64,000 nucleotides of DNA from Maribacter luteus (GTDB lineage Bacteria > Bacteroidota > Bacteroidia > Flavobacteriales > Flavobacteriaceae), in assembly GCF_009674825.1 (NCBI RefSeq), contig NZ_WKJH01000005.1, positions 124,001 through 188,000 of the forward strand, given 5' to 3'. The first letter of the stretch is position 1. The number at the start of each line of letters is the position of its first letter. Below are positions 39,080-42,138 of this stretch, in pieces. Below the pieces are notes generated by a model. The model saw only the letters and a list, made by a program, of their open reading frames with translations. It was not told the origin of the DNA and searched no databases. A program made the translations under genes and the position numbers.

Positions 39080-40291
39080 ATGTTAGAAAAGAAAGCCATA
39101 GAATACGAAAAAGTCGTCCTAATTGGTGTTATCAATAAGGAACAGGATCAGGAAAAGGTGAACGAATACCTTGATGAACTGGAGTTTCTGACCTACACCG
39201 CAGGTGGTGAAGTGGTAAAACGTTTCGTACAGCGTGTAGATGTACCCAACCCTAAAACCTTGATCGGCAGTGGAAAGATGCAAGAGGTAGAAAGTTTTGT
39301 GGAAGAACACGAGGTCGGGTCGGTTATCTTCGATGATGAGCTTTCCCCAGGACAACAACGTAACATTGAAAAACAATTGCGATGTAAGATTTTGGACCGA
39401 ACGAGTCTTATCCTCGATATATTCGCCCAACGTGCACAGACCAGTTATTCCCGAACCCAAGTGGAATTGGCCCAGTACGAATATCTTCTACCCAGGCTTA
39501 CAGGGTTATGGACACACTTAGAGCGACAAAAAGGGGGTATTGGTATGCGCGGACCCGGTGAAACCGAGATTGAAACCGATAGACGTATCGTGCGTGACCG
39601 TATTTCATTGTTGAAGAAAAAACTTTTGAAGATAGATCGGCAAATGGAAACCCAAAGAGGAAATAGGGGAGCACTTGTGCGGGTAGCACTCGTAGGATAC
39701 ACCAATGTTGGGAAGTCAACCCTGATGAATGTCATCAGTAAAAGTGATGTCTTCGCAGAAAACAAGCTTTTCGCTACCCTTGACACAACCGTTCGCAAAG
39801 TCGTAATAGGAAACCTTCCTTTTTTACTCAGTGATACCGTAGGTTTCATTCGTAAACTACCTACACAATTGGTAGAGAGCTTTAAAAGCACACTAGATGA
39901 AGTTCGTGAAGCAGACCTATTATTGCATGTAGTTGATATTTCCCATCCTAATTTTGAAGAGCATATAGCATCGGTCAACAAAATATTGGATGAAATAGAC
40001 AGTGCCGATAAGAAAACGATCATGGTTTTCAATAAAATAGACCAATACCACCATCAAACCATTGATGAAGACGACTTGGTTACCGAAAGATCTTCGATAC
40101 ATTTTACCATCGAAGATTGGAAACGCACCTGGATGCAACGGATGGGCGAAAATGCCTTGTTCATATCCGCATTGAACAAAGAAAACCTTGATGAATTCCG
40201 TAAAAGGGTCTATGATGTTGTCAGAGATATACATGTAACCCGTTTTCCTTATAACAACTTCCTGTATCCTGAACATTTAGACCAATATTAA
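39080..40291 (+). CDS. hflX: Ribosome-rescue GTPase HflX
   Basis: 403 residues. An N-terminal HflX domain (about 1-195, with NPKTLIGSGKMQEV and GMRGPGETEIETDRR) precedes the G domain: G1 GYTNVGKST (206-214), G3 DTVGFIRKLP and G4 NKID. HflX binds the 50S subunit and splits stalled ribosomes under stress. The stop codon lies inside a perfect 11-bp hairpin (40276-40301). The downstream region is the small-transcript array. Confidence 0.93.
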   Translation: MLEKKAIEYEKVVLIGVINKEQDQEKVNEYLDELEFLTYTAGGEVVKRFVQRVDVPNPKTLIGSGKMQEVESFVEEHEVGSVIFDDELSPGQQRNIEKQLRCKILDRTSLILDIFAQRAQTSYSRTQVELAQYEYLLPRLTGLWTHLERQKGGIGMRGPGETEIETDRRIVRDRISLLKKKLLKIDRQMETQRGNRGALVRVALVGYTNVGKSTLMNVISKSDVFAENKLFATLDTTVRKVVIGNLPFLLSDTVGFIRKLPTQLVESFKSTLDEVREADLLLHVVDISHPNFEEHIASVNKILDEIDSADKKTIMVFNKIDQYHHQTIDEDDLVTERSSIHFTIEDWKRTWMQRMGENALFISALNKENLDEFRKRVYDVVRDIHVTRFPYNNFLYPEHLDQY

Positions 40292-40301
40292 TTGGTCTAA
40301 A
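40276..40301 (+). terminator. Perfect hairpin spanning the hflX stop codon
   Basis: TTTAGACCAAT (40276-40286) pairs perfectly with ATTGGTCTAAA (40291-40301) around a 4-nt ATTA loop. The TAA stop is at 40289-40291. No T tract follows, so it may protect the mRNA 3' end or act as a DNA palindrome rather than terminate by itself. Confidence 0.5.
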
Positions 40302-40371
40302 ACAGGAAGAAAATGTGCCGTTCATCGGGAAAACCATACCGTTAATTTTTTCACCACAATTAAGGATGCGT

Positions 40372-40389
40372 TCACAACATATTTTGTGA
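40372..40389 (+). promoter_or_regulatory. 18-bp palindromic operator, copy 1
   Basis: TCACAA-CATATT-TTGTGA is a perfect 6-6-6 inverted repeat. It overlaps the expected -33 region (TTG at 40384-40386) of the small-transcript promoter. It looks like a binding site for a dimeric regulator; the regulator is unknown. Confidence 0.6.
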
Positions 40390-40408
40390 TCTTTCCTCTG
40401 GTACAACT

Positions 40409-40416
40409 TATCTTTA
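40409..40416 (+). promoter_or_regulatory. Promoter -7 element of small transcript 1
   Basis: TATCTTTA, one base from TAnnTTTG, lies 22 nt after TTG inside the palindrome. It is conserved in the second copy at the same distance. Predicted transcription start is near 40421. Confidence 0.5.
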
Positions 40417-40420
40417 CCTT

Positions 40421-40594
40421 GTAATTAAGTGATCGTATTGACCCCAAATCAATTCATGAACTTGACCAAAAAAACTAAAGGTTTCCCCAAAACCTTTACT
40501 TAACCAAATAATGCTATCCGAATTCTTTTCGGACCAAATTTTACAAAACCTACTGAACTAAAAAACGCTCTTTTTTCAAAGGGCGTTTTTTATT
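40421..40594 (+). ncRNA. Candidate small RNA 1 of tandem array
   Basis: Predicted from promoter to terminator, about 170 nt. After a leader shared with copy 2 come hairpin H1 (40476-40484 with 40490-40498, 9 bp, loop CCCCA), hairpin H2 (TCCGAA 40517-40522 with TTCGGA 40528-40533) and the terminator. A 15-codon frame starts at the ATG at 40456 (MNLTKKTKGFPKTFT). It is short, shares only its first four residues with copy 2, and the degraded third copy has no ATG. A structured RNA is therefore favoured over a peptide. H2 shows compensatory changes against copy 2. It may belong to a known flavobacterial RNA motif such as Flavo-1; I cannot test that here. Confidence 0.6.
40561..40592 (+). terminator. 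Intrinsic terminator of small transcript 1
   Basis: AAAAACGCTC (40561-40570) pairs with GGGCGTTTTT (40581-40590) with one G-T pair and a 10-nt loop, ending in a T tract. Confidence 0.85.
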
Positions 40595-40689
40595 TTCCTA
40601 TATCGTTCAGAACCCTTCAGCCGATATAAAGTATGCCGTTCATCGGGAAAATCGTACCGTTAATTTTTACACCACAATTAAGGATGGGT

Positions 40690-40707
40690 TCACAACATAT
40701 TTTGTGA
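40690..40707 (+). promoter_or_regulatory. 18-bp palindromic operator, copy 2
   Basis: TCACAA-CATATT-TTGTGA, identical to copy 1 including the spacer, and again 37 nt before the -7 element (start to start). Confidence 0.6.
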
Positions 40708-40726
40708 CCTTTCCTCTGTTCCACCT

Positions 40727-40734
40727 TATCTTTA
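40727..40734 (+). promoter_or_regulatory. Promoter -7 element of small transcript 2
   Basis: TATCTTTA at the same position relative to the palindrome as in copy 1. Predicted transcription start is near 40739. Confidence 0.5.
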
Positions 40735-40738
40735 CATT

Positions 40739-40902
40739 GTAATTAAGTGATCGTATAGACCCCAAATCTTATCATGAACTTAACCTATAATAGTGCAAGC
40801 CCCAAACGAGCACTAAACCTATAAAAAGCTACCTGAATTTTATCAGGACTGTAATTTAAACCTACTTAAAAAAAGGCCCTTTCCCAAAAGGGCCTTTTTT
40901 AA
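40739..40902 (+). ncRNA. Candidate small RNA 2 of tandem array
   Basis: About 160 nt. The conserved leader is followed by H1 (TAGTGC 40791-40796 with GCACTA 40810-40815, loop containing CCCCAAA as in copy 1), H2 (CCTGA 40832-40836 with TCAGG 40843-40847) and a 14-bp terminator. H2 lines up with H2 of copy 1, where a G-C pair has become T-A and an A-T pair has become G-C. A 16-codon frame from the ATG at 40774 (MNLTYNSASPKRALNL) is unlike that of copy 1 after four residues. A regulated structured RNA is the best reading; a leader peptide is the alternative. Confidence 0.6.
40869..40902 (+). terminator. Intrinsic terminator of small transcript 2
   Basis: A perfect 14-bp stem (40869-40882 with 40887-40900), CCCA loop, GGCCC core and a six-T tail. 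It is also followed by little T on the other strand, so it is oriented to the plus strand. Confidence 0.9.
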
Positions 40903-40966
40903 TGACCTATACCGAACTTTAATAAAAGAAGAGGTTCGTAACATCCCTATATTTTTTTACCATTTA

Positions 40967-41193
40967 CACCACAAAAAGTCTGTTATACACAACAAATATT
41001 TACAATTTATGCTGCCTAAGATTACCTTAGTCCTGTATTTATGATTTAGTATTGAATCCCAAAAGAATCATAAATTAACCTACGGATAAGTATTTGGAAT
41101 TACTCAGTTCAAAATTGAAAACTTGGACACAATACATAACTGACTAATTCAATAAATAAAAAAGCCCTGGCATGACTGACAGGGCTTTTTTTT
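40967..41193 (+). ncRNA. Degraded third copy of the small-transcript unit
   Basis: TTTACACCACAA (40964-40975) matches copy 2 of the repeat exactly, followed by ACACAACAAATATTT where the palindrome should be. At 41049-41080, GTATTGAATCCCAAAAGAATC followed by ATAAATTAACC aligns to the leader GTATTGACCCCAAATC, AATTCATGAACTTGACC of copy 1. The palindrome is broken, the ATG is replaced (CATAAA), and the -7 element is unclear. It ends in a strong terminator. It may be a decayed or diverged member of the array; expression is doubtful. Confidence 0.35.
41158..41193. terminator. Bidirectional terminator between small-transcript array and DUF3078 gene
   Basis: A 12-bp stem (41158-41169 with 41180-41191; GCCCTG/CAGGGC core, A-run on one side and T-run on the other). 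It can stop the third small unit on the plus strand and the DUF3078 gene, whose stop is at 41209, on the minus strand. Confidence 0.85.
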
Positions 41194-41208
41194 ATAATTA
41201 AAATTGGT

Positions 41209-42138
41209 TTAGAAGGCATAGTTAAGGCCAAATAACCAATAGGTCTGTAAATCATTGTCAATATTATCGAAAGTGGCGGTGGCATCAGGTGTTGGTCCGT
41301 TCAACGCGTAATTAAGCGCTTCTTGCTTATTATCCCTTAAACCAAATTCAAAGCCAAGCCCAATACCTTTCCAGATCGTATATCCAAAAGAGTTGATCCA
41401 TGTCCAATTCGACAGGTCTGAAGATTTATAACTTTGGAACATCGAAAGGTTGGTCTTAAAATTAACCTTACCGATTTTACGGGTATAATCGGCTACGATC
41501 TTTGCACCCATTGAGGATTCAAAAATATCATCCTCACTACTGAAAACAAAGTTATAGTTCAAAGGGTGGATGACTACAACCAAATCTGTAATTGGTGTCC
41601 ATGTGGCACCAATACCTAAATCCAAATAACCTGGATCGTTGAAGTTGCTCAATATCGTAGTCCTATATTCCCCTAAGGCAGATATAGCGAACTTCTCACT
41701 TATTTTACGCCCATAAAGCGATGAAATGGAGAAAACATCCGTAGCCTGTTGAAAGCTATCGTCATCTGTTGGATCATCCTTGTCATCGAACTTTACCCAA
41801 CCAAGGTTGATGTTTCCCGAGTTTCTCCAGAAAAACTTTTCTTGATTAAGGTTGGCAAATCCATTTACAGTAACCCCAATATTACCTGCACTGGAATTAG
41901 CTGCATCTTTTGAATACCAATTATCGAAACCGGATAAGTTGGCCCCAATGGTACCGAACGCCCCTTTCTTCCATCCTGGAAGGGCATCAATTTGTGCTTG
42001 TAGGGCATCTACCCTACCTTGAATGGCCGCAATCGAATCTTTCTTAGGACCTTGTAAGGCCTTCAATTCATCCGCGGTCTGTGCGTATGTAGCTGATAGT
42101 GCCAAAAACGCAGTAACTGTTAAAACTAAATTTCTCAT
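41209..42138 (-). CDS. DUF3078 outer-membrane beta-barrel protein
   Basis: 309 residues. Signal peptide (MRNLVLTVTAFLALSATYAQ), a short helical segment (KDSIAAIQGRVDALQAQIDAL, about 32-52), then a beta-barrel ending in an aromatic C-terminal Phe (WLFGLNYAF), which fits an outer-membrane protein. The SGFDNWYSKDAANS and NLNQEKFFWRNSG segments are typical of flavobacterial DUF3078. Function is unknown. It has a consensus promoter and a strong terminator, and is separate from the suf operon. Confidence 0.87.
   Translation of the reverse strand: MRNLVLTVTAFLALSATYAQTADELKALQGPKKDSIAAIQGRVDALQAQIDALPGWKKGAFGTIGANLSGFDNWYSKDAANSSAGNIGVTVNGFANLNQEKFFWRNSGNINLGWVKFDDKDDPTDDDSFQQATDVFSISSLYGRKISEKFAISALGEYRTTILSNFNDPGYLDLGIGATWTPITDLVVVIHPLNYNFVFSSEDDIFESSMGAKIVADYTRKIGKVNFKTNLSMFQSYKSSDLSNWTWINSFGYTIWKGIGLGFEFGLRDNKQEALNYALNGPTPDATATFDNIDNDLQTYWLFGLNYAF

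Follow-up and report, generated by a model that had tools for sequence, protein, structure and literature searches.

Some small RNAs (sRNAs) are titrated by another RNA. In Caulobacter crescentus, CrfA is a sponge of the sibling sRNAs SisA-D (alphaR8): it is an independent sRNA that pairs with the conserved core of the siblings, and one sibling, SisA, pairs with a target mRNA at a site upstream of its start codon (excerpts of PMC12559287). The same excerpts present QrrX of Vibrio as a sponge of the multi-copy Qrr family. In the Bacteroidota, FopS and GibS of Bacteroides thetaiotaomicron are multi-copy sRNAs that use a common seed near start codons and are antagonized by another factor (excerpts of PMC11697453), and the sRNA Rfp18 of Flavobacterium psychrophilum, which is conserved within the genus, influences the mRNA levels of two metalloproteases (excerpts of PMC9723704). 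The pairs SroC/GcvB, AgvB/GcvB, 3'ETS-leuZ and RbsZ/RybB are further cases of an sRNA titrated by another RNA (excerpts of PMC8383071). Here, we analyse a stretch of 64,000 nucleotides of Maribacter luteus (the window), in which an array of predicted small-RNA genes that we call S lies between a gene for an HflX-type GTPase and a DUF3078 gene.

By its sequence, the array consists of two apparently intact S genes (S1 and S2) and one decayed copy (S3). A second family of predicted RNAs, which we call A and which is complementary to S, is found on another contig of the same genome. We consider it probable that A is an sRNA pairing at start codons and that S is a multi-site sponge dedicated to A, a reading for which CrfA/SisA-D and QrrX/Qrr would be the precedents by analogy. 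S would soak up A and thereby free the mRNA targets of A.

The S array and its proposed partner RNA A

A search of the M. luteus genome with the array found, besides the array itself, five matches of 27–28 nt in a tandem array on another contig (G000:C8:646138-647072; L039:2638-3570). This second array comprises five predicted tandem RNA genes of about 70 nt, flanked by a gene with Pfam glutamine amidotransferase domains, which we take to be purF, and by a superoxide dismutase gene. Each A has the core CCATAGCATAAGTAGGTTAAGTTCATGGTAAGATTTGGGG (with two changes in the fifth copy), preceded at a short distance by a −7-like box and followed by a terminator. The predicted fold has two stem-loops, and the G-rich tail GAUUUGGGG is predicted to be unpaired with a probability of 0.96. 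Column frequencies over 224 A units point to a TAnnTTTG-like box in most of them, at −13 to −6 relative to the core; the units were gathered with a pattern close to A itself, so that the conservation of the core partly reflects the way in which they were chosen. The original prediction had overlooked both this complementary family and the third, diverged copy of S.

Module 1 of S2 is complementary to A at 96% over 28 nt for four A copies and at 93% over 27 nt for the fifth, and the predicted S2/A duplex has 29 consecutive pairs (−51.0 kcal/mol). For S1, 9 + 14 pairs are predicted around a 3 × 3 loop, with more pairs beyond a long bulge (−40.3 kcal/mol). When the own genome was searched for CCCCAAATC-N7-GAACTTAACC with at most three mismatches, nine matches were obtained (one in the reversed control): the five A, the two S and two others, one of which lies in a coding sequence that presumably belongs to a leucine-rich-repeat protein. 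In the same genome, the pattern CCCAAATCN{2,30}ACCTAC gave ten matches, five of them A, and two in the control. On viral contigs, there were five matches of the loose module, none of which continues as an A or S unit as judged by eye.

The same plan is found in relatives. A model of the S leader (R1, based on sequence only) gave 94 matches over 58 sources, of which 84 units in 57 sources were kept after dropping nine partial low scorers and one match at a contig end. The array is therefore neither an assembly duplication, which the original prediction had named among the outcomes that would refute it, nor due to chance. From a list of 58 units, freed of near-duplicates and of 19 units set aside by hand, 37 were chosen by eye and aligned with S1 of the window; these 38 S RNAs align along their whole length. 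The plan consists of a 5' arm AATTAAGTGATAG, three modules and a terminator. Module 1 is CCCCAAATC-N7-GAACTTAACC. Module 2 is a hairpin whose loop contains (C)CCCAAA and behind which ACTTGACCTA or AACCTA is found, and module 3, CCAAATTTTACA-AACCTACTT, precedes the terminator. For the 5' arm, pairing with AACTTAA is predicted, by which module 1 would also form a hairpin with a C-rich loop. Besides the 5' arm and the terminator, the best conserved parts of S are those that pair with A, and the stems and spacers are the most variable. In the window, the elements are as follows (bits are R1 scores).

40320..40333, + strand: S1 distal upstream motif GTTCATCGGGAAAA (family motif TTYRTCKA..AAA)
40350..40379, + strand: S1 direct repeat TTCACCACA / TTCACAACA, 21 bp apart
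40409..40416, + strand: S1 −7 promoter element TATCTTTA (TAnnTTTA, invariant in 26 aligned leaders)
40421..40592, + strand: S1 small RNA gene, predicted transcript of ~172 nt with putative ends (74 bits)
40442..40467, + strand: S1 module 1, CCCCAAATC-N7-GAACTTGACC, complementary to RNA A (duplex as given above)
40477..40506, + strand: S1 module 2, hairpin with a CCCCA loop, then ACTTAACC (sequence, fold, family test)
40533..40554, + strand: S1 module 3, ACCAAATTTTACAAAACCTACT (sequence, 38-unit alignment)
40560..40592, + strand: S1 intrinsic terminator (inverted repeat, fold)
40638..40651, + strand: S2 distal upstream motif (sequence, family element)
40668..40697, + strand: S2 direct repeat TACACCACA / TTCACAACA, 21 bp apart (sequence, family element)
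40727..40734, + strand: S2 −7 element TATCTTTA (sequence, leader alignment)
40739..40901, + strand: S2 small RNA gene, predicted transcript of ~163 nt with putative ends (70.7 bits)
40760..40787, + strand: S2 module 1 (28 nt), complementary to RNA A throughout, one pair being G·U
40792..40823, + strand: S2 module 2, hairpin with a CCCCAAA loop, then AAACCTATA (sequence, fold, family test)
40851..40867, + strand: S2 module 3, GTAATTTAAACCTACTT (sequence, alignment)
40869..40901, + strand: S2 intrinsic terminator (inverted repeat, 100% complementary)
41034..41195, + strand: S3, diverged third copy (7.4 bits over 41034-41082)
40372..40389, no strand: 18-bp palindrome, overlapping the second direct repeat of S1; not conserved in the family
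39080..40291, + strand: upstream neighbour, HflX-type GTPase (Pfam GTP-bdg_N, GTP-bdg_M, MMR_HSR1), presumably hflX
41209..42138, − strand: convergent neighbour, DUF3078 gene (Pfam DUF3078, 7.8e-17)

The complementarity to A was compared with that of shuffled sequences in 64 of the 84 units, those left after removal of near-identical bodies (S1 of the window, a near-copy of L058:3288, was dropped in this step). Leaders rank in the best 5% of shuffles in 58 of 64 units (mean z −4.8). The leader belongs to the R1 model with which S was collected, and its complementarity is therefore not independent evidence; that of the bodies, which the search model does not see, is. Indeed, 56 of 64 bodies rank in the best 5% (mean z −3.2), and 54 do so against shuffled A, a fixed body length being used where the automatic terminator call came too early. 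Moreover, the segments in question appear exposed: over 135 CCCCAAA/CCCAAAT sites in the 84 S RNAs, the predicted unpaired probability is 0.86, and it is 0.79 for ACCTAC, compared with a background of 0.54. With the C-rich core forced to be unpaired, a predicted hairpin encloses the second CCC(C)AAA core in 61 of 65 units (mean −4.3 kcal/mol versus −1.2 with shuffled flanks) and the leader core in 49 of 50 (−6.0 versus −2.2 kcal/mol), the comparison with shuffles bearing on energy and not on the frequency of enclosure.

These results bear on another view of the array, namely that of the original prediction: sibling sRNAs controlled by the palindrome, each with a variable body directed at different mRNAs. 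The description on which it was based is confirmed in part. Two ungapped 152-bp repeats (40316-40467 and 40634-40785), spaced by 318 bp, differ at 14 positions, as had been counted by hand, and the alignment can be extended to 163 bp with 89% identity. Each repeat contains the identical 18-mer TCACAACATATTTTGTGA (16/18 symmetric), at 40372 and 40690, as well as the common −7 element, and each copy has its terminator hairpin. The tandem paralogues thus share a conserved promoter region, S1 and S2 do differ in stems and spacers, and each S is predicted to form its own transcription unit with a promoter box and a terminator; a tandem family of stand-alone genes with a conserved control region is, by sequence, the part of the proposal that stands. 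Control by the palindrome does not, since it is found with at most one mismatch in only 5 of 84 units, two of which are those of the window. Nor are the bodies unrelated: their ungapped identity is 21%, but their gapped alignment score is 69.5, compared with 41.2 ± 5.7 for shuffles, none of 500 of which reaches it. The bodies align and keep the same complementarity to A, which is at odds with a divergence towards different targets, and we regard this view as unlikely.

The lack of a long reading frame in the array, also stated in the original prediction, was confirmed, and that S encodes a short peptide of 15–16 codons (MNLT...) is scarcely credible. ATGAACTTRACC opens such a frame in both window copies, but ATG occupies this position in 10 of 84 units (43 could be scored with the pattern used and 41 could not; TTG 13, AAG 5, and others), and the longest complete frame per S transcript has a median of 21 codons.

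Distribution of the two families

Using a model of A (R2) at E ≤ 0.001, a search that tests spread and not invariance, A is detected in 321 of 397 Flavobacteriaceae genomes, with up to seven copies in one genome. In an order-level sample, 38 of 246 genomes have A; 37 belong to the Flavobacteriaceae, and the one outside the family is a weak case (E 2.2e-4). In named genomes, all 132 exact matches of CCCCAAATCN{6,7}GAACTTAACC are A copies, among the matches listed, which represent 80 of the 118 stretches found; the genera include Maribacter, Zobellia, Arenibacter, Flagellimonas, Winogradskyella, Aquimarina and Formosa, together with others. The genomic setting recurs as well: among 94 A loci, 66 hold both the purF-like and superoxide dismutase genes, with A between them in all 66; 24 hold one and four hold neither.

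S is found in 48 of the 397 family genomes (R1, E ≤ 2e-5); outside the family, only one partial match of 21 bits was obtained among 196 genomes. All 48 S-bearing genomes have at least three A copies, compared with 71 of 349 genomes without S (both lists copied by hand), counts that are not independent because the genomes are phylogenetically clustered. The original prediction had raised the question of recurrence beside hflX or DUF3078, and it does recur: of 56 S stretches outside the window, 45 adjoin one or both of these genes (32 both) and 11 neither. This suggests that the hflX–DUF3078 location seen in the window is the ancestral S site.

The third copy is much more diverged. Its match (41034-41082) has 7.4 bits and an E value of 0.004 in 1051 bases searched, and its complementarity to A is equalled by 6 of 500 shuffles. 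The convergent DUF3078 gene ends directly beside the predicted terminator of S3 (~41157-41195), which may serve both genes. A comparable diverged copy adjoining DUF3078 was seen by eye at another locus (L253).

Candidate targets and a possible common regulator

Recurring matches of a start-codon-free pattern for the bipartite site pointed to mRNA 5' leaders whose start codon follows immediately on the site, and the start codon was then added to the pattern. CCAAATN{2,14}CCTACTTN{0,5}ATGA gave 118 matches in 299 genomes, compared with 20 for the reversed control, and was matched in 97 of these genomes (matches and controls counted by hand). Among 30 loci fetched, 19 open a reading frame of at least 60 codons (a raw count, uncorrected for chance), and inspection by eye suggests lipoprotein or secretion signals in many of the encoded proteins. 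In several genera, the short leader of what is presumably a CAP-domain lipoprotein (L285, L289, L290, L304, L274-L279; PF00188 tested on one member) ends with CCAAATCTAAATTTACCTACTT directly before ATG.

A second candidate family, P0001 (L350-L371), comprises proteins of 147 aa beginning MTCLEC..., with no Pfam match. All 22 S-bearing genomes tested have its gene, and the four tested without S lack it. With at most one mismatch, the leaders contain CCCAAATC in 20 of 22 cases, RACCTACTT in 12 and both in 10, and their pairing with A ranks in the best 5% relative to shuffles in 16 of 22. Judged by eye, the leaders of several genera have an insert resembling a hairpin between the two halves.

A would offer two seeds, the tail GAUUUGGGG, predicted to be free, and AAGUAGGUUAAGUUC within its 5' hairpin. 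In targets, the corresponding bipartite site (CCAAAU ... ACCUACUU) would immediately precede the start codon, such that A would block translation initiation. As mRNA leaders use the same two half-sites ahead of AUG, translation should be repressed by A and this repression relieved by S. Two consecutive hairpins of S would each show CCCCAAAUC in the loop and the complement of the second seed of A in the 3' arm and following linker, and a third site would lie before the terminator. In the simplest reading, the tail of A would dock on a C-rich loop, used as a toehold, after which the second seed would open the stem by invasion and a duplex of up to ~28 bp would form. With its three sites, a single S could thus take up as many as three A molecules.

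Several points, in addition to the dependence of the leader and co-occurrence counts mentioned above, weigh against this reading. On the S side, 8 of 64 bodies fall outside the best 5%, CTTRACC is not especially accessible (unpaired 0.50), relatives differ in the 7-nt linker of module 1, and module 1 of S1 has its 3 × 3 internal loop with A. The second seed of A is itself only half accessible (0.49). The predicted hairpins are in the best 5 of 100 flank shuffles in 31 of 65 units for the second core and 26 of 50 for the leader core, and the RNAalifold consensus of the 38-unit alignment keeps only the terminator; they are therefore based on single-sequence folds and flank shuffles, not on covariation. 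On the target side, the start-codon-free pattern CCAAATN{4,12}ACCTACTT is hardly above its control, 11 of the 30 loci fetched have no reading frame of 60 codons, and one of the other 19 (L294) seems to lie inside a longer frame. Finally, evidence for targets in the genome of M. luteus itself is weak. Its best candidate, the P0001 orthologue (L360), keeps only the CCCAAATC half-site, the second half-site being lost in 8 of 9 genomes of the genus, this one included. The exact CCTACTT..ATGA target pattern has no match in this genome, and CCAAAN{3,18}ACCTACTN{0,8}ATG, searched in six genomes of the genus, returned many rows that are A copies and no convincing target in M. luteus. The use of the seed of A on mRNAs is supported at the level of the family, and is no more than possible in this genome.

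We may wonder whether the roles are reversed, with S as the active regulator of mRNAs and the A copies as antagonists that neutralize it. The pairing itself is symmetric, and S has an elaborate conserved upstream region. Yet A is far more widespread than S (321 genomes compared with 48), so that most A-bearing genomes have no detected S; the sites at start codons match the complement of A, i.e. the mRNAs resemble S and not A; and the A-pairing segments are among the best conserved parts of S. Such a reversal is therefore quite improbable. Less probable still, by about half, is that both arrays happen to contain the 28-bp word as a double-stranded DNA operator or another DNA element, with no RNA–RNA pairing, even if a DNA site is the same in either orientation. 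Both predicted transcription units include the word, S at about +20 and A from about +10 onwards and in the opposite orientation, and in mRNAs it immediately precedes AUG. S splits it into half-sites that lie in linkers and in the loops of predicted hairpins, and an insert separates the halves in some P0001 leaders; such splitting is not what one would expect a DNA-binding protein to tolerate.

The upstream regions of A, S and many targets have a motif in common. TTYRTCKA is found upstream of 50 of 83 S units, 107 of 214 A units (mostly at −50 and −70), 21 of 21 P0001 genes and 14 of 22 other targets, where mononucleotide shuffles would give 1.6, 8.2, 0.7 and 0.7; the counts for the opposite strand are 14, 45, 0 and 8, respectively. 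A longer form with AAA is found in 61/83, 43/214, 18/21 and 12/22 cases. In S, TTCACAACA-like words (at most one mismatch) spaced by 21 bp form a conserved element in 69 of 84 units, and GTTCATCGANNAAA (at most two mismatches) is found in 64 of 84 upstream regions, 88–90 nt before the −7 box (0.55 expected from shuffles), but only in 8 of 224 A units (0.4 expected). The sharing of TTYRTCKA suggests that one regulator may control A, S and the targets. We tentatively propose, as a possibility we rate below even chances, a post-transcriptional switch of the Flavobacteriaceae with A and S at its core, in which this regulator, a DNA-binding protein, drives A, its targets and a three-site toehold sponge, the A:S ratio setting a threshold for envelope proteins. 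The TTYRTCKA site would often occur twice, about 20 bp apart, the sponge would operate in one large group of genera, and the targets would be many lipoproteins and secreted proteins (by eye).

Three further observations concern A-like sites. In four genera in which no S was found (L270-L273), an open reading frame beginning MNTAPNLPKPTFFENK (by eye) is preceded and overlapped by tandem CCCCAAATC...ACTTATG modules that resemble the complement of A, possibly an mRNA-borne sponge. At L291, L299 and L308, an A-like site precedes the start codon of a membrane regulator, which at L291 combines 7TMR-DISM_7TM with a LuxR-type helix-turn-helix just under the cut-off; it is a candidate for feedback to the regulator itself. 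At L288 and L296, a 40-codon frame (MKN.KRIVL...FFASKVLSSDF...), conserved in two genera, directly follows an A-like site and may encode an unannotated small membrane protein.

Comparison with described systems

Post-transcriptional control in Bacteroidota outside Bacteroides is, to our knowledge, little charted. The present analysis would provide, from sequence alone, a very widespread sRNA of the Flavobacteriaceae, a sponge dedicated to it and a readable rule for its mRNA targets. It also bears on the retention of one sRNA in multiple copies, every sponge-bearing genome sampled having at least three A.

The original prediction did not recognize the array as a known system, and our searches agree. 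Rfam 15 gave no match at gathering thresholds for the window or for ten S/A loci, and the 69 sub-threshold matches obtained with E up to 10, none near its cut-off, were taken as chance. Among them, the GibS model reaches 21.5 bits at S3, compared with a cut-off of 115. Flavo-1 (RF01705) is absent from the matches of these searches. FopS and GibS have no match at gathering level; the structure of FopS is stated to be deposited in Rfam (excerpts of PMC11697453), its presence in the copy used being unconfirmed. In the open-access literature searched, we recognized no description of S or A.

The antagonist of FopS/GibS is a protein, RbpB (excerpts of PMC11697453), and not an RNA. Rfp18, compared by description only, uses its third stem-loop for pairing (excerpts of PMC9723704), whereas A folds into two. 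SroC/GcvB, AgvB/GcvB, 3'ETS-leuZ and RbsZ/RybB differ in that these sponges are largely processed from other transcripts or phage-borne, and no tandem multi-site sponge is described among those in the excerpts of PMC8383071. QrrX/Qrr belongs to an unrelated phylum and is likened to S/A by its description (excerpts of PMC12559287), not by sequence. According to the same excerpts, CrfA uses one stem-loop (G49–C63) on a 10-nt core, the promoters of SisA-D have no common motif and the system depends on Hfq. In contrast, S has three bipartite modules giving up to ~28 bp, is arranged in tandem and is found in another phylum, and the upstream regions of A and S share a motif. Functionally, S is closest to the sponges of sibling sRNAs, from which it is set apart as a tandem, three-module and bipartite system.

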